The position numbers and the translations under genes were made by a program. The notes below the pieces were generated by a model, which saw only the letters and a program-made list of their open reading frames with translations, did not search any database and was not told where the DNA came from. Source: Limnothrix sp. CACIAM 69d (GTDB taxonomy: Bacteria; Cyanobacteriota; Cyanobacteriia; CACIAM-69d). From it: a DNA stretch of 64,000 nucleotides. Location: contig MKGP02000041.1 in assembly GCA_001913845.2 (NCBI GenBank), positions 1 through 64,000 on the forward strand. The letters are read 5' to 3'. Shown here piece after piece: positions 18,346 to 26,768 of the stretch (position 1 is the first letter of the stretch; every line of letters starts with the position of its first letter).

Positions 18346-20871
18346 CTAGAACCGGATGGAAGCCGATCCAGTGACCGTGAAAGGTGTACCTACTTCGAGA
18401 CCCGTATTGCTTCCCACCGTGGATTTGATGTAGGTTTCATCCGTGAAATTCCGGAAGTTCAAAGCAAACCGATAGTTATCCCGCTGATAGAAAATGGCAG
18501 CATTTCCGATGAAATAGTCTCCAATTTTGTAGTCGTTGGCCAGGTTGCCGTAGCGATCGCTCGCATATTCAAACCCCGCCCCAAAGCCCAATCCTTTGAA
18601 GGAGCCAGACTGAATTTCATAGGTTGTCCAAAGGGTGGCTTTATGCTCAGGAATGCCATACAGTCGATTCCCAATCAGAGCTTCATTGGTATCTTCCGTA
18701 ACTTTGCTGTCGATATAGGCATAGGAACCCAAAATTTTCCAGCCGGGCAACAGTTCGCCAATCAAATCAAGCTCAAGGCCGCGATTGCGTTGCTCCCCTG
18801 AAGAAACTGAAAAGAGAAGATTATCTGGATCAGTCACCGGCACATTTTGTTTGGTGATGTCGAAGTAGGTGAGGGTGGCCAGGAGGCGGCGATCGAACAA
18901 TTCAGCCTTCACGCCCACTTCAAACCCTTCACCTTCTTCAGGCTTCAAGATTGAACCATCCGCACCGGTCGAAGTGGTGGGACGAAAAGATTGGGAATAG
19001 TTGGCAAATAGCGATAGTTCAGGAAGCGGGCGGTAAAGAATCCCGAGGCGCGGTGTCCAAGAACTCAGTTCAATATTGTTGCCTTCACGGCGACCCAATT
19101 GATCCTCGGTTTCAATACCGATCGTGTCGTAACGCAGACCGGCAACCACGATCAAATTGTCCGTGAGATTAATTTGATCCTGAAGATAAAATCCGAGACG
19201 ATTGGCAGTGGTCAGATCATCATTGAAAGGGGGTAGATCAGAGCGATCAGGGCGAACCACCGCATCATAATTGCGGTCAAAAATGTTGATGATTGACGGT
19301 TTCGAGCGATCAAACAGCGTAGCAATTCGCGATTCACTACGATTCAGATCAAGACCAATAGTTGCTTGGTGGGCGATCGATCCAGTTTTGAAAGTACCCA
19401 CAAGACTGGTTTGCAAGGTGTAGGATTGATCCTCACCATCTTGATCAGCATAGAAGCGAGTGACCCTGGGGCCATTGGCAGTCAGGGGCAGCGCCACCAC
19501 GCTGTAATCGTAGTCATAGCTGATGTAGCGGAAGCCGTTGCGAATTTTCCAGTTGTCGCTAAATCGATGCTCGAATTGATAACCGGTGCTGAAATAGTCC
19601 GTTGTAATGGAATCCTCAGGATCCGTAATAATCAACTCGCGATCGACCGGTGCAACCCCATCTTCAAATCGACTCAAACCAAAATCAGACGGCCCCTTTT
19701 GGTGAATGTATTCAAGGTTGAGCGATAAATCCGTTTGATCGCTGATTTTCCAAGCCAGCGCGGGGGCGATCGAAAAGCGATTGGTGTCGGTTTCAAAGTC
19801 CCGAAAAGGGGCTTGGTGCTGATAAACACTATTTAGCCGATAGCGCAAGCTGCCATCTGCCGTCAGCGGGCCACCAAAATCAATTCGAGGACGAATTAAT
19901 TCATTGCTGCCGCCCTGAAGTTCAACTTCATAAAAGGGTTCGGCGAGGGGTTGTTTGGACACCAGGTTGATAATGCCACCCGGTTCAATTTGCCCATACA
20001 GAATGGAAGCTGGCCCCTTCAACACTTCGATTTGTTCAAGGTTGGCGACTTCTGGAATCGCTTGAAAGGAACCGTAGAGTCGATAGCCATCGCGCAAAAC
20101 CGATACGGTGGCGGGATATTGGTTACCAAATCCGCGAATGCTCACCGTCGCTTCCCGACCGCTGTTGCTCCCGGCATAGGACACACCACTCACATTGGTC
20201 AGTGCATCTTCGATGTTGATTACCTGCTGATCGCGCAGGACGGCTTGGGGAATCACCTGCACTGAGAAAGGCGTTTCCAGAATTGGGGTGTCTGTGCCGG
20301 TAGCGCTGGAGGCATTGGGAACCCGGTAACTGGGCGATCGCTGCCCCGTCACCACCAGTTCTTCTTCAGACGCATTGGCATCCACGTTCAAGCCGTAGGC
20401 CAAGTCACCCGTGGCCAAGGTCACGTCCTGGGTGGGCAACCCATTACGACCCGTCACCACCACTTGGATTCGATCGGGCGCAATCTGCCAAATCCGAACC
20501 GAGGACACTTCAGAGGTGGGATCAGCTTGGTTGAACTCGGCCCCTTCCGGCAAGGACAGGTTGGCGTTGCTGATCTCGGCGATCAGTTGGTTGCCCTCGG
20601 CCCGGAACTGGTTCGCATCAATCAACAAGGACTGACCGGCTGGGGTTTCCAGGGCAATTTCCAACTCATCCGGCAGGGGCGTAACCACCACACGGGTCAC
20701 GGTGGTGGGGCGATCGGCTTGGGCCAGCCAGGACTCTACTGAGGTGGCGGGGGCAGTGCTACGGAATCGATCGAGTGGCTCCGGTGGAACAGACTCAGCC
20801 CCAGCGGGAGCGGCCAACAAGCCGATCGTCACCAACAAAACCGACAGAGACAGAGGAGATGCAGATTTCAT
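18346..20871 (-). CDS. TonB-dependent siderophore receptor with AMIN domain, copy A
   Basis: This 841-residue outer-membrane receptor imports ferric siderophores using TonB energy. A Sec signal peptide occupies residues 1-26. An AMIN domain covers about 55-160, a common addition in cyanobacterial receptors. A TonB-box-like EEELVVTGQR follows near 168-177. The plug domain runs to about 330 (LEQIEVLKGPASILYGQIEPGGIINLVSK) and the 22-strand barrel ends with the typical aromatic C-terminus SIRF. The N-terminal 250 residues are nearly identical to copy B while the barrel differs, as expected for two receptors with a shared TonB interface and different siderophores. The start is 112 bases after the stop of copy B. 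Confidence 0.92.
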   Translation of the reverse strand: MKSASPLSLSVLLVTIGLLAAPAGAESVPPEPLDRFRSTAPATSVESWLAQADRPTTVTRVVVTPLPDELEIALETPAGQSLLIDANQFRAEGNQLIAEISNANLSLPEGAEFNQADPTSEVSSVRIWQIAPDRIQVVVTGRNGLPTQDVTLATGDLAYGLNVDANASEEELVVTGQRSPSYRVPNASSATGTDTPILETPFSVQVIPQAVLRDQQVINIEDALTNVSGVSYAGSNSGREATVSIRGFGNQYPATVSVLRDGYRLYGSFQAIPEVANLEQIEVLKGPASILYGQIEPGGIINLVSKQPLAEPFYEVELQGGSNELIRPRIDFGGPLTADGSLRYRLNSVYQHQAPFRDFETDTNRFSIAPALAWKISDQTDLSLNLEYIHQKGPSDFGLSRFEDGVAPVDRELIITDPEDSITTDYFSTGYQFEHRFSDNWKIRNGFRYISYDYDYSVVALPLTANGPRVTRFYADQDGEDQSYTLQTSLVGTFKTGSIAHQATIGLDLNRSESRIATLFDRSKPSIINIFDRNYDAVVRPDRSDLPPFNDDLTTANRLGFYLQDQINLTDNLIVVAGLRYDTIGIETEDQLGRREGNNIELSSWTPRLGILYRPLPELSLFANYSQSFRPTTSTGADGSILKPEEGEGFEVGVKAELFDRRLLATLTYFDITKQNVPVTDPDNLLFSVSSGEQRNRGLELDLIGELLPGWKILGSYAYIDSKVTEDTNEALIGNRLYGIPEHKATLWTTYEIQSGSFKGLGFGAGFEYASDRYGNLANDYKIGDYFIGNAAIFYQRDNYRFALNFRNFTDETYIKSTVGSNTGLEVGTPFTVTGSASIRF

Positions 20872-20983
20872 GGGAATGTTCTAAGGGAATTCAAGGAGTA
20901 ATCAGGGAAAGTTTTTTGAACATTGGCCTCATGAAGACCAGGAATGAGATCAACACAATGGTTGCAAGCACTTCCTACGAAAC

Positions 20984-23506
20984 TTAGAACCGAATTGAAG
21001 CTGACCCTGTGACTGTGAAGGGTGAACCCACTTCAATACCGCCTTCATTTCCAGTGGCCCCTTTGATGTAGTTTTCGTCAGTGAAGTTGCGGAAATTCAA
21101 AGCAAAGCGATAGTTATCTCGCTGATAAAAAATTGCTGCATTGCCAATCAGATAGTCACCGAGGCGATAGTCATTGGCTAAGTTTCCATAGCGATCGCTC
21201 GCGTACTCAAACCCCACACCAAAGCCCAATCCTTTGAAGGAACCGGACTGGATTTCATAGCTTGTCCAGAGAGTGGCTTTATGTTTTGCCAAGCCCGCCG
21301 GTCGATTACCAATTAAGGCTTCATCGGTGTCTTCAGTAACTTCCCCATCGATGTAGGCATAGGAACCCAAAATTTTCCAGCCGGGTAATGGTTCCCCGAT
21401 CAGATCCAGCTCAACGCCTCGGTTGCGTTGTTCACCGGAGGCCACAGAAAAGAGAGGATTTTCGGGATCTGAAACTGCAACGTTTTGCTTGGCAATGTCG
21501 AAGTAGGTGAGGGTGGCTAGCAGGCGGCGATCGAACAATTCAGCCTTCACACCCACTTCAAATCCTTCGCCCTCTTCCGGGGGCAGAATTGCACCACTGG
21601 AACTGGTGGCCGTCGTGGGTCGAAAGGATTGGGAATAGCTGGCGAAGAGGGCTAATTCGGGAATTGGCTGATACAAAATTCCGAGGCGGGGTGTCCAAGC
21701 ATCTGCGTTAAAGCTGCTGCTTTCATCGGTCAGCTTCTGATCGGTTTCGCTGTCGATCGTGTCGTAACGCAACCCGGCAATAATCATCAAGTTATCGGTT
21801 AGATTAATCCGATCTTGTAGGTAAATTCCTAACCGAGTGGATGTTGTGATGTCATCTTGAAAAGACGGCAAATCTGAGCGATCGGGCTTGGGAACTCGCT
21901 CATATTCCGGGTTGAAAATATTGATCGTGCTCGGATTAGCCGTATCAAACAGAGTCTCAATTGCGAACTCGCTGTAGTTGAGATCGAGGCCGATCGTCGC
22001 TTCGTGTTCTAGGGAACCCGTTTTGAAGTTCCCAATAACGCTGGTTTGGGCTGTGTAGGAGCGATCGTCTCCGTCTTGATCAGCATAAAAGCGAGTAATC
22101 TCCGCATCATTCACGATAATCGGCAGGGCTATAACGCTGTAGTCATAGGTGTAGTTGATGTAGCGGAAGCCATTGCGAATTTTCCAGTTGTCGCTGAAGC
22201 GGTGCTCAAATTGATAACCGGTATTCAAGTATTCAGTGGTAATTGAGTCATCGGGGTTGTTGATCACAAACTCTCGATCAACAGGCGCAACGCCATCCCC
22301 AAATCGGCTAATTCCAAAGTCTGCTGGCCCCTTTTGATGGATATATTCCAAATTGAGAGATAAATCAGTTTGATCACTGATTTTCCAAGCTAATACTGGG
22401 GCGATCGCAAGGCGGTTTATATCTGTATCAAAATCTCGAAAAGGTGATTGATGTTGATAAAGGGCATTCAGTCGATAGCGCAAACTGCCATCACTGGTTA
22501 AGGGGCCGCTGAAGTCAATTCGGGGACGGACTAGCTCATCACTGCCAGCCTGGAATTCTGCTTCATAAAAAGGTTGATCTAAGGGTTGTTTGGAAACCAG
22601 GTTAATGATGCCACCCGGTTCAATTTGTCCATAAAGAATCGAAGACGGCCCCTTCAACACTTCAATTTGTTCCAGGTTGGCAACTTCCGGAATCGCTTGG
22701 AAACCGCCATAAATGCGATACCCATCTCGCAACAACGGGGCCCCAGTGGAAAATTGATTGCCGAATCCGCGAATGCTGAAACTAGCTTCCCGGCTGCCAT
22801 TGCTCCCAGCAAAAGCTACGCCACTCACGTTGTTCAGCGCGTCTTCAATGTTGATTACCTGCTGATCGCGCAAGACAGCTTGGGGAATCACCTGCACCGA
22901 GAAAGGCGTTTCCAAAATTGGGGTGTCCGTCCCAGTGGCGCTGGAGGCATTGGGAACCCGGTAGCTGGGCGATCGCTGGCCCGTCACCACCAGTTCTTCT
23001 TCAGACGCATTGGCATCCACGTTCAAGCTGTAGGCCAAATCACCCGTGGCCAAGGTCACGTCCTGGACGGGCAACCCATTACGACCCGTCACCACCACTT
23101 GGATTCGATCGGGCGCAATCTGCCAAACCCGCACCGAGGCCACTTCAGAGGTGGGATCAGCTTGGTTGAACTCGGCCCCTTCCGGCAAGGACAGGCTGGC
23201 GTTGCTGATCTCGGCGATCAGTTGGTTGCCCTCGGCCCGGAACTGGTTCGCATCAATCAACAAGGACTGACCGGCTGGAGTTTCCAGGGCAATTTCCAAC
23301 TCATCGGGCAGGGGCGTAACCACCACGCGAGTCACGGTGGTGGGGCGATCGGCTTGGGCGAGCCAGGACTCTACTGAGGTGGCGGGGGCAGTGCTACGGA
23401 ATCGATCGAGTGGCTCCGGTGGCACAGGCTCAGCACCAGCGGGAGCGGCCAGCGCTCCGATCGCCACCAACAAAACCGACAGAGATAGGGGAGATGCAGA
23501 GTTCAT
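20984..23506 (-). CDS. TonB-dependent siderophore receptor with AMIN domain, copy B
   Basis: This 840-residue outer-membrane receptor has the same order as copy A: signal peptide (1-26), AMIN domain (about 55-160), TonB box near EEELVVTGQR, plug domain with IEVLKGPSSILYGQIEPGG, and a barrel ending in SIRF. Compared with copy A, changes in the first 200 residues are few, whereas barrel loops differ often. Specificity for a different ferric siderophore is likely but cannot be read from the sequence. The gene lies 168 bases downstream of tonB and upstream of copy A on the same strand, within a probable iron-regulated operon or regulon. Confidence 0.92.
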   Translation of the reverse strand: MNSASPLSLSVLLVAIGALAAPAGAEPVPPEPLDRFRSTAPATSVESWLAQADRPTTVTRVVVTPLPDELEIALETPAGQSLLIDANQFRAEGNQLIAEISNASLSLPEGAEFNQADPTSEVASVRVWQIAPDRIQVVVTGRNGLPVQDVTLATGDLAYSLNVDANASEEELVVTGQRSPSYRVPNASSATGTDTPILETPFSVQVIPQAVLRDQQVINIEDALNNVSGVAFAGSNGSREASFSIRGFGNQFSTGAPLLRDGYRIYGGFQAIPEVANLEQIEVLKGPSSILYGQIEPGGIINLVSKQPLDQPFYEAEFQAGSDELVRPRIDFSGPLTSDGSLRYRLNALYQHQSPFRDFDTDINRLAIAPVLAWKISDQTDLSLNLEYIHQKGPADFGISRFGDGVAPVDREFVINNPDDSITTEYLNTGYQFEHRFSDNWKIRNGFRYINYTYDYSVIALPIIVNDAEITRFYADQDGDDRSYTAQTSVIGNFKTGSLEHEATIGLDLNYSEFAIETLFDTANPSTINIFNPEYERVPKPDRSDLPSFQDDITTSTRLGIYLQDRINLTDNLMIIAGLRYDTIDSETDQKLTDESSSFNADAWTPRLGILYQPIPELALFASYSQSFRPTTATSSSGAILPPEEGEGFEVGVKAELFDRRLLATLTYFDIAKQNVAVSDPENPLFSVASGEQRNRGVELDLIGEPLPGWKILGSYAYIDGEVTEDTDEALIGNRPAGLAKHKATLWTSYEIQSGSFKGLGFGVGFEYASDRYGNLANDYRLGDYLIGNAAIFYQRDNYRFALNFRNFTDENYIKGATGNEGGIEVGSPFTVTGSASIRF

Positions 23507-23674: not shown

Positions 23675-25078
23675 CTAGTTGGTGGGACTGCTGGCGGGTT
23701 CCGGAGCGCTGGGGGCGGCCGGGGCGACCGGCGCGGGCTGAGGAGCCGGGGCTGCTTGGGCCGGGCGGGGCGATCGCCGAGGTCGGGGAGATCGGGTGGG
23801 CCGGGGACTGCGGCGGACTGGGGCAGCCGGAGCCTCAGCGGCGGGACTGCGGGCCGGTGGTTCCGCTGGGGCCACGGGCGATCGGGCGGGGGCCACCACT
23901 GCGGGGCGGGCCGGTTCCGGAGCCGGGCGGCTAGGACTTGGATCGCTAGCGTTGCTGGGCGCACTGGGGCGACTGGGGCGTGGTTCCCGGTCAGTGCTCG
24001 CTGGAGCGGCGGGGGCGGATCCCGTGGAGGTGGCCGCGGGCGCGGGGCTGGCCGGTTGCTCCGCTGTGCGATCGGTGGGGCGTTCCGTCGGATGTTCAGA
24101 GGGGCGCTCAACCGGACGATCGGCGGTCGGTTCCATGGGGCGTTCAGCGGCCCGTTGCCGTTCCGCCTGCTCTGCGGCCTGGCGACGTTCTGATTCCTCG
24201 CGACGACGGGCTTCGTTGGCCCGCTGGAACCGCGATCCCTCCTCTTCGTAGGTGACGCGCATCGGTCGGCGCAGGCCGCCCTCGGGCACGGTTTGCGGAT
24301 CAAAGCGCCATTGCCGCATCGCTTCTAGGGTTTCGCGATCGACCGCCGGGTTGCCACTGGATTGGCGCAACCGCACTTCCACGCTGCCATCGGGCCGAAT
24401 CCGCAAATCCACACGGGGGCTGGCTTCCGTGCCCTGATAGCGCGGCAGGGGACAGCTCACACATTGGGGCTGGCCGGGCGATCGGGCGGGAGCAGGCGGC
24501 GGACTCGGGGGCGGGCTGGCCACGGGCGGCCCCTCCAAGATGCCAGCCGGTTCCCCATCGCTCGACCCCGTGCCCTCGGGATCGCCGTCCGGTGTGCCCG
24601 AGGTGAATCCAGTGGCTTGGCTGGCATTGCCGAACCCGTTCCCTGTGCCGTTGGGATCGCTAATTGGGCCGGTACCCGTGGCCATGGCCGGTGCATCCCC
24701 CGTGGGACTGGTGCCGGGGGCGATCGGGTCGCGATCGCCCGTGGGATTGGGGTTGCGAGTGGGCGCATCTTCCCCGGCTTTCAAAGGAGCCTGACTTTGG
24801 GGAGCCAACGGAACCCGATCGCGCTGCGGATTGGCAACGGGGTCAGTCGGGAGAGGTGTGGCCAGGGGGGCCGGCGGCTGGTCGGGCGTGACGTTGGAAA
24901 TGGTCACTTCCATTTCGCTGTTGGTGGTGACCGAGCGATCGCCCCACCAGTTGCGAACTTGCCACCCCCAGGCCAACCCATGCAGGGCGATCGACCCGCA
25001 AACGCTGCCAAACAGAAACCGTTTCAGCCACCGAGATTCCTTTTGGCGCTGCTGACCAATCAGTTGCGAGCTGTCCAT
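23675..25078 (-). CDS. tonB: TonB-family energy transducer with long C-terminal extension
   Basis: This 467-residue protein should span the inner membrane once (about residues 20-42) and reach through the periplasm. Residues 63-205 are a Pro/Gly/Thr-rich spacer. The TonB C-terminal domain is at about 206-278 and shows the family patterns RIRPDGSVEVRL and EAMRQWRFDPQ. Normally a TonB ends there. Here a charged helix (RREESERRQAAEQAERQRAAE, about 291-311, written with overlap of the helix start) and about 155 further residues rich in Pro, Ala, Arg and Ser follow. Its neighbours are exbD, exbB and two TonB-dependent receptors, so the role in powering ferric siderophore import is clear. The function of the tail is unknown. 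Confidence 0.85.
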   Translation of the reverse strand: MDSSQLIGQQRQKESRWLKRFLFGSVCGSIALHGLAWGWQVRNWWGDRSVTTNSEMEVTISNVTPDQPPAPLATPLPTDPVANPQRDRVPLAPQSQAPLKAGEDAPTRNPNPTGDRDPIAPGTSPTGDAPAMATGTGPISDPNGTGNGFGNASQATGFTSGTPDGDPEGTGSSDGEPAGILEGPPVASPPPSPPPAPARSPGQPQCVSCPLPRYQGTEASPRVDLRIRPDGSVEVRLRQSSGNPAVDRETLEAMRQWRFDPQTVPEGGLRRPMRVTYEEEGSRFQRANEARRREESERRQAAEQAERQRAAERPMEPTADRPVERPSEHPTERPTDRTAEQPASPAPAATSTGSAPAAPASTDREPRPSRPSAPSNASDPSPSRPAPEPARPAVVAPARSPVAPAEPPARSPAAEAPAAPVRRSPRPTRSPRPRRSPRPAQAAPAPQPAPVAPAAPSAPEPASSPTN

Positions 25079-25128: not shown

Positions 25129-25545
25129 TTAGGGTTGCGTGGGTTTTTGGGTGGCGATCGCCAGTTTGGCCCCCTCCACCTGGCGCACTCGATCCATCAC
25201 CGCCACCACGCGATCGTGGGTCACCGAACCATCGGCATTCAGGACGATCGTTAAATCCTGTCCCGATTGCTGAAGTCCTCGAATCGCGTTGGTCAAAGAC
25301 TCGATCGCCACGGGGGTTTTGTTCAGAAATAAACCACCTTGGGGATCGAGTGTCACCGTGGCTCGAATCACCTTTTGGGGCTTGGCCGACTGGGCTTTTG
25401 GCAAATTCACCGCCAACCCCTCAAATCGCCCCAAAAAGAGCGTAGACATAATGAAAAAGGTCAGAATGGCGAAGATCACATCGATCATCGGCACAATTTC
25501 AATCCGAGGCGGCAAGTCCGGTTCATCAATGGTTCGCCTGCGCAT
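25129..25545 (-). CDS. exbD: ExbD biopolymer transport protein
   Basis: This 138-residue inner membrane protein is part of the ExbB-ExbD proton channel that energises TonB. The single membrane segment, about residues 20-40, begins MIDVIFAILTFFIM and contains the conserved Asp of the proton path. The periplasmic domain shows VTLDPQGGLFLNKTPV and a regular ExbD ending. It starts within the last 20 bases of exbB, so translation is probably coupled, and tonB follows 50 bases later. Confidence 0.93.
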   Translation of the reverse strand: MRRRTIDEPDLPPRIEIVPMIDVIFAILTFFIMSTLFLGRFEGLAVNLPKAQSAKPQKVIRATVTLDPQGGLFLNKTPVAIESLTNAIRGLQQSGQDLTIVLNADGSVTHDRVVAVMDRVRQVEGAKLAIATQKPTQP

Positions 25546-26200
25546 AGGTTGCTCCCTCCGTTGTTTTAATCCGCATCTTTTTCAAGTAGCGCCGATGCCG
25601 TAATTCCAGTTCCGCTGAGTATTCCTGAATCAGGGCAATTTGCCGCAGATAAAAGCCTCGGAACGTGTTAGCAAAAAACAGCGTGAACAACGCCACCACC
25701 AAACCAAACGCCGTAGAAATCAAGGCTTCACTAATCCCGGAAGTAACTGCGGTGGTCTTTGCGCCGCCCACATCACCCAAATTCAGGGAGCTAAAGGATT
25801 GAATTAGCCCCAACACCGTCCCCAACAATCCCAACAACGGCGACAGGGTAATGATCGTGTCAAAGATGTTGTTAAAGCGTTTTAAGACGGGAATTTCTGC
25901 CTGAGTTGCCCCATCGATCGCCAAGGCAATTTCATCGGGTTCAGCCTCTTCTAAGGAAGCCGCCGCCAGAAAAATTCGCCCTAGTGGTAAATCCACATTA
26001 CGTTTGAGTTTTTCAACTGCTAGCAATGGATCAAATTCATAGAGATCCAACACTTCTCGAATGGCTTTGGTTTGCCGTCGATTCACCCGAAACCAAAAAA
26101 CTACTCGCTCGATGATCAGAGCGATCGCCAACACTGAAAACAACGTGAGGGGAACCGCAACTGCTCCCGCTGCCACCAAAATTTCACCCAGTTTCTGCAT
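25526..26200 (-). CDS. exbB: ExbB/TolQ/MotA family proton channel
   Basis: This 224-residue inner membrane protein forms the ExbB pentamer that uses the proton gradient to drive TonB. It has three membrane segments: about residues 10-30, 105-130 and 150-175. The conserved stretch LSPLLGLLGTVLGLI and the pattern SEALISTAFGL are both typical of ExbB. ATG 26200 has GAAGGA close upstream; an alternative GTG at 26215 would add five residues. The gene is the first of the exbB-exbD-tonB cluster, and its upstream region has the 21-bp-spaced direct repeats described separately. Confidence 0.92.
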   Translation of the reverse strand: MQKLGEILVAAGAVAVPLTLFSVLAIALIIERVVFWFRVNRRQTKAIREVLDLYEFDPLLAVEKLKRNVDLPLGRIFLAAASLEEAEPDEIALAIDGATQAEIPVLKRFNNIFDTIITLSPLLGLLGTVLGLIQSFSSLNLGDVGGAKTTAVTSGISEALISTAFGLVVALFTLFFANTFRGFYLRQIALIQEYSAELELRHRRYLKKMRIKTTEGATYAQANH

Positions 26201-26768
26201 CGTTCCTTCACCCACCTTGTCAACAAATTGCTTGCGAATTTTGCAAAAAATGCCAATAAATGCTCATTTAGTGCTCATCAATGAATTGTTCATTCGCGGT
26301 TTTCAAGGAGATTTTTCAAAAATTTATTCTGAAATGTTCGTCAAACCAAAACAGCAATGAAAACAAAGAGTTCAAGTTTCTTTCTGGTTCTTGTTGGTTA
26401 CGGTGGCTGGAGGCAAATAGATCAAGCTTGAGGCTGCAGACATTTTTATTCTGAGCTGACGTTTCTACTGTTCAAGCGCCCTTGGTCATGGGTTTGCCAG
26501 CCATCAAATTTAAATCCACGAGCCACACCAATCTCTTCGCGCCAGCCTGCATGACGGTGGAGCGCCACCGCCGAACCTCTCAGTTGAGAACTACTTTCAA
26601 TTAATTGGCGAGATGATCTTACGGTGCTGCGACCTCAGAAGGGGGAACTAAAGTTTGCTGAAACGGAATTTTTCTTTGGCGAAACGGAATTTTTAGTGAA
26701 ATTGGGGCCAGGGGACGATCGCGCAGTAGTCCCTTGATCGCCCCTTGAGCCTCGGCTGGCCGTCAGTT
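26201..26768. other. Upstream region of the exb-ton cluster
   Basis: This AT-rich 568-base stretch lies between exbB and the AraC gene, both on the minus strand. I see no gene. It contains two direct repeats at 26660-26694 that may be regulator sites, and several TGCTCAT repeats near 26260. Confidence 0.5.
26660..26694. promoter_or_regulatory. Direct repeats spaced 21 bp, candidate AraC operator
   Basis: GAAACGGAATTTTT occurs at 26660-26673 and again, identical, at 26681-26694. The 21-bp period places both on the same face of DNA, as in many AraC-family sites. They lie just past the 3' end of the AraC gene and upstream of exbB. Confidence 0.45.

Follow-up and report, generated by a model that had tools for sequence, protein, structure and literature searches.

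We find that the gene at 23675 to 25078 on the minus strand of the window (the whole stretch of DNA analysed here, 64,000 nucleotides) encodes a TonB whose C-terminal domain is followed by 189 further residues. The identity of the product as a cyanobacterial TonB is nearly certain. The tailed TonB is a common architecture in Cyanobacteriia, and the window protein is not exceptional. The tail has already been named in print, and the window TonB adds a member to a known architecture. The gene and the parts of its product are as follows.

23675 to 25078, minus strand: tonB, energy transducer, 467 aa (ORF; TIGR01352 and Pfam TonB_C matches).
24944 to 25072, minus strand: N-terminal, transmembrane helix, residues 3-45, with S29-x3-H33 (AlphaFold2 helix; conservation in alignment A4).
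24896 to 24913, minus strand: short strand, residues 56-61, D-box-like (ExbD-binding) segment (AlphaFold2 strand; E57 invariant in 25 rows).
24467 to 24895, minus strand: Pro-rich, disordered periplasmic linker, residues 62-204 (pLDDT mostly below 50; composition).
24245 to 24466, minus strand: TonB C-terminal domain, residues 205-278, including CxxC at 206/209 (profiles; AlphaFold2; Foldseek).
24143 to 24232, minus strand: charged helix (neck), residues 283-312, with GS at 281-282 just before it (AlphaFold2; conserved GS-x-FQR-x-N-E-x-RR).
23678 to 24142, minus strand: Pro/Ala/Arg-rich, disordered tail, residues 313-467 (no AlphaFold2 secondary structure; purifying selection; no Pfam family).

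The profile TIGR01352 (tonB_Cterm) matched residues 212-277 with 46 bits against a cut-off of 27.1, and Pfam TonB_C matched residues 214-263 with 29.1 bits against 24.6. Modeling the whole protein by AlphaFold2 (mean pLDDT 61; 75-96 in the ten-residue blocks of 201-310), we obtained strands at residues 206-208, 222-227 and 232-239, a helix at 244-255 and a strand at 269-278. A further helix is predicted at 283-312, with no secondary structure from there up to residue 467. These strand and helix boundaries place the end of the TonB domain at about residue 278, leaving 189 residues beyond it. The first-pass annotation had described an internal TonB domain with a charged helix and a Pro/Ala/Arg-rich stretch behind it, at 23675-24245, and this layout agrees with both the profiles and the model; the helix and the disorder are predicted features. 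Pfam scanning of the tail returned no family up to an E-value of 1. The tail blocks 431-460 showed a raised pLDDT of 68-76 without secondary structure (residues 431-467 lie at 23678-23788 of the window). Three tandem repeats, weak, short and of 2-3 copies each, lie in the tonB gene, and the promoter/terminator scan gave fewer sites than shuffled sequence.

Searching the PDB by Foldseek with a model of the domain plus helix (mean pLDDT 71.6), we found TonB domains at ranks 1-9 with probability 1.00 (best E-value 0.0012, none below 0.001). The fold is the same as that of the E. coli and Pseudomonas aeruginosa TonB C-terminal domains (1u07, 6fip, 6i97 and 2gsk). Those proteins end a few residues beyond the last strand, whereas in the window TonB the domain is followed by a helix of 30 residues and a tail of 155. 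Its domain start is also shortened, with a CxxC in front. This CxxCP motif (24449-24463, residues 206-210) lies directly ahead of the domain, and both Cys are invariant in 25 rows of alignment A4. TolA has a related C-terminal fold (6s3w, Foldseek rank 10); unlike TolA, the window protein is encoded beside receptors and exbBD, and a scan of six neighbouring proteins showed neither TolB nor Pal. E. coli TonB bears a Ser and a His in its membrane helix. In 25 rows of alignment A4, H33 is invariant and S29 is kept in at least 90%; a check by eye did not show the two other residues of the published SHLS motif, Leu and Ser. The sequence MEVTISN at the predicted strand 56-61 matches in part only the D-box pattern for ExbD binding, as defined in the accessible part of PMC10907165.

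We considered whether the tail arises from a sequencing frameshift near codon 280, the event that the first-pass annotation had named as fatal to it. The stretch is GC-rich and other frames are open too, which speaks for such an error. However, the same-genus relative G033 aligns end to end with the window TonB (91% identity over the aligned protein, 84% in the tail), and both frames stop at corresponding places. All 13 gap columns of the tail alignment are whole codons. The tail (residues 314-467) gave pS 0.41, pN 0.09 and a dN/dS of 0.17; the values elsewhere were 0.11 for the linker (61-204) and 0.02 for residues 205-283. The frame kept in the congener, the whole-codon indels and the low dN/dS together argue that the tail is translated in the stated frame and is constrained. 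Homologues of other families preserve the frame as well, and G299, from another family, shows 50% identity to the window TonB over residues 3-419. We thus rejected the frameshift, whose chance is now close to nil.

Surveying TonB proteins of the class, we found 40 or more residues beyond the domain in 129 of 144 distinct proteins (66 genera in 23 families, from 140 genomes; a duplicate and three truncated ORFs had been removed). These 129 tails have a median length of 145 residues (IQR 122-160), and every surveyed member carries one in 57 of the 66 genera. The survey of other cyanobacterial TonBs proposed in the first-pass annotation was worthwhile, and a tail behind the domain is widespread; the unusualness claimed for an internal domain does not hold in the surveyed Cyanobacteriia, and positive charge is not shared by most tails, 96 of the 129 being net negative. 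Since so many class homologues are tailed, we do not count a C-terminal position of the domain, usual outside this class, as TonB-defining. The 160 scored loci, all with a TonB-domain ORF, were chosen by hand (60 from searches, 100 by coordinates) and are not a random sample. Profile A1 includes part of the helix and so favours tailed proteins, which makes the picks partly biased to tails. Among the class loci taken from the Pfam search alone, 28 of 38 passed the 40-residue threshold for a tail. Deliberately divergent families had such a tail in 12 of 30 loci (two from one genome); by eye, most of these 12 belong to a different TonB-like sub-family. TonB_C matches occur in at least 234 of 291 genomes of the phylum, and A1 matches in at least 219 of 338 genomes of the class. 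In the source genome, TonB_C matches once and ExbD six times. A scan of viral contigs found no relative.

The tail is short or missing in 15 of the 144 class proteins, some of them inside a tailed genus (f7 g14), which indicates that it can be lost. We also checked 12 proteins from sister classes: 11 stop within 10 residues past the domain, and only G192, which matches weakly, continues further. Among early-branching genomes, the best TonB matches of G301, G318, f25 (including G175), f53 and f55 stop at the domain. We built a quick tree from the TonB domain only (83 rows by 83 columns). In it, 66 class rows group together (SH-aLRT 86), with many forks unresolved; the tail-less early families fall outside this group, and the tree carries nine changes of tail state. 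One gain followed by several losses would suit this tree, where the number of changes by itself fits gain and loss alike.

In close homologues, the stretch after the last strand follows roughly EEEGS-x-FQR-x-N-E-x-RRR; G281, S282, R291 and R292 are invariant in the 26 rows of alignment A3, and 114 of the 129 tails start with GS. Opposite charges spaced at i,i+3/i+4, as in single charged helices, exceed those of shuffled sequences (z 2.7 in the window TonB; medians 2.3 in f14 and 2.7 in f26), and z lies above zero in 107 of 125 distinct stretches. The signature is weak in the Nostocaceae-like f7 (median z 0.63) and in f23 (0.14), and a neck plus arm may therefore not be one general mechanism. 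Proline makes up a median of 29% of the tail versus 13% of the linker. The net charge of the 129 tails is negative in the 96 given above, positive in 32 and zero in one. Beyond the helix start, the rest of the tail keeps its length and its proline, not its charge. A second tail type (38 tails: L099, L103, L106, L108-L116, L118-L123 and others) has a well-conserved head, roughly GSxRNRxARRRGER-xx-VE[VLI]P, ending in a short strand-like segment that resembles a TonB box or a D-box.

The genes around tonB run in the order exbB, exbD, tonB and two siderophore-type receptors, each with a Pfam AMIN domain.

25526 to 26215, minus strand: exbB, 229 aa (Pfam MotA_ExbB, 109.4 bits).
25129 to 25545, minus strand: exbD, 138 aa (Pfam ExbD, 100.9 bits).
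20984 to 23506, minus strand: TonB-dependent siderophore receptor, with AMIN at residues 85-146, a TonB-box-like EEELVVTG at 169 and a plug at 197-300 (profile scans; box by eye).
18346 to 20871, minus strand: second TonB-dependent receptor, AMIN-bearing and closely similar (Pfam scan).

By eye, the TonB-box-like segment of the first receptor sits between AMIN and plug. The two tandem receptors (18346-23506) are 91% identical over the AMIN-plug stretch, and the pair is probably a recent duplication. Of the 25 named loci with a TonB ORF (L207-L232), 23 have both exbB and exbD close by. Of the 80 loci L077-L156, whose flanks extend no further than about 3 kb per side, 69 have ExbB or ExbD.

In the TonB family, the N-terminal helix takes force from ExbBD, and the edge of the C-terminal domain pairs with the TonB box of a receptor. 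We consider it fairly likely that the window protein is, taken as a whole, an ordinary ExbB-ExbD-TonB siderophore transducer whose extension forms a stiff neck followed by a Pro-rich arm. Force from ExbBD would enter through the N-terminal helix and pass to the AMIN siderophore receptors encoded next door, with the domain edge pairing with their TonB box. The charge-patterned helix, leaving straight from the last strand, is probably a stiff neck that would keep the rest of the protein off the receptor-binding edge. The cyanobacterial wall is thick. In it, the disordered Pro-rich arm would most likely act as a polymer that holds or guides the domain near the receptors. The neck-and-arm mechanism as such we put forward tentatively, as possible though short of probable. 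No binding partner for the tail was found in this computational analysis.

The tail may instead have no role and be a neutral, fast-evolving extension. Little sequence is conserved past the helix, and the nine tail-state changes on the domain tree fit such a history. Against these stand the purifying selection on the tail, its narrow length range and the conserved start of the helix, and we regard neutrality as rather unlikely. Binding of peptidoglycan or outer-membrane lipid by positive charge, another suggestion of the first-pass annotation, finds some footing in a basic patch, RRSPRPTRSPRPRRSPRP (near residues 422-439; one stretch of 20 residues has a net charge of +6), and in the f7 tails, which are basic with a median of +16. 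However, residues 314-467 of the window TonB carry a net charge of only +5, and with most tails net negative, a net-charge model fails to carry over to the relatives. We rejected net charge as a general working principle, and such binding by the window tail is improbable; binding of peptidoglycan by means other than conserved net charge is possible.

We also weighed self-inhibition, in which a strand of the tail pairs with its own domain edge or with ExbD until the TonB box of a receptor displaces it. In the GSxRNRxARRRGER sub-type, a short VE-x-P segment follows the head: 27 of 38 tails show xV[ED]xP among their first 45 residues, and 29 of 38 have V[ED]xP at some position, compared with 4.9 in shuffled tails. 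In the sub-type of the window TonB, the motif is present in 27 of 59 tails versus 6.8 shuffled, and the pLDDT of 68-76 in blocks 431-460 points the same way. Yet the motif was picked after inspection and the set of 38 was chosen by an overlapping pattern, which makes these counts partly circular. In a third set, the motif is present in 3 of 32 tails, and N-terminal linkers contain it too (10, 11 and 7 cases in the three sets). The window tail itself is without a V[ED]xP segment, and AlphaFold2 shows no strand in it. We hold self-inhibition to be very unlikely. The first-pass suggestion that the tail blocks activity until it is cut found no support here. In the accessible parts of PMC8597729 and PMC8262864, Anabaena TonB3, which bears an extension, is required for ferric schizokinen uptake, and these parts make no mention of its tail being cut off.

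A further reading has the tail cooperate with AMIN, the peptidoglycan-binding domain ahead of the receptors' TonB box. Searching 36 and 38 genomes with the AMIN-box-plug stretch of the window receptor, and scanning the fetched loci, we found that AMIN occurs in 3 receptor ORFs out of 27 where TonB is tail-less or nearly so (11 genomes), and in 13 out of 19 where it is tailed (named loci L207-L232). The accessible part of PMC12204202 offers a parallel, in which a different N-terminal domain of Bacteroidetes receptors is implicated in TonB contact. The contrast between lineages may be shared history only, and the test by locus was not significant: 17 had tail and AMIN, 8 tail without AMIN, 2 AMIN without tail and 5 neither (Fisher p=0.09; G354 counted twice, window and congener within the 17). 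G336 and G324 break the pattern, with AMIN receptors beside a tail-less TonB, and G301 has one AMIN receptor. Tail-AMIN coupling is a lead, not a result, and in itself has a slim chance.

A more far-reaching account, which we hold to be improbable, would have crown cyanobacteria add the extension to their Ton motor. In it, neck and arm would gate the receptor-binding edge (through a TonB-box- or D-box-like strand in one sub-type) or hook the domain to the wall beside receptors that had gained the peptidoglycan-binding AMIN domain. Once Gloeobacter-like and Thermostichus-like lineages had branched off, both partners would thereby have been rebuilt to suit a thick wall.

By description, the closest known systems to the window TonB are TonB2, TonB3 and TonB4 of Anabaena sp. 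PCC 7120. In these, a C-terminal extension comes after the membrane region, the linker and the region that binds the TonB box (PMC8597729, Fig. 1 legend). In the mostly open-access literature searched, this is the sole paper found to name the extension; its accessible part states no role for it that we found, and no explanation of the cyanobacterial TonB extension was found elsewhere in that literature. Cyanobacterial TonB genes are listed in PMC2771747, and the TolA/TonB domain is described as C-terminal in PMC12204202, as far as the accessible parts go.

Family profiles that end at the TonB domain miss the tail. It sits at the force-transmitting end, is kept by most surveyed members of the class and has a conserved neck in close homologues, which makes it a simple target for deletion. 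Its wide retention and conserved neck, with no role found, make the tail testable, though it is common and already named. It bears on how TonB can act as a rod through a wall as thick as the cyanobacterial one.

We noticed two further points. Other genera of the window's own family (G133, G292 and G293) carry the other TonB type, the congener G291 gave no match, and the window TonB lies nearest to f45 and f14 rows on the domain tree; replacement or transfer of the window tonB is possible from these placements. A separate sub-family of TonB-domain proteins (L170, L171, L242, L243, L248, L249, L252, L255, L256 and L259) has Cys near both ends of the domain and long, often Pro-rich tails.
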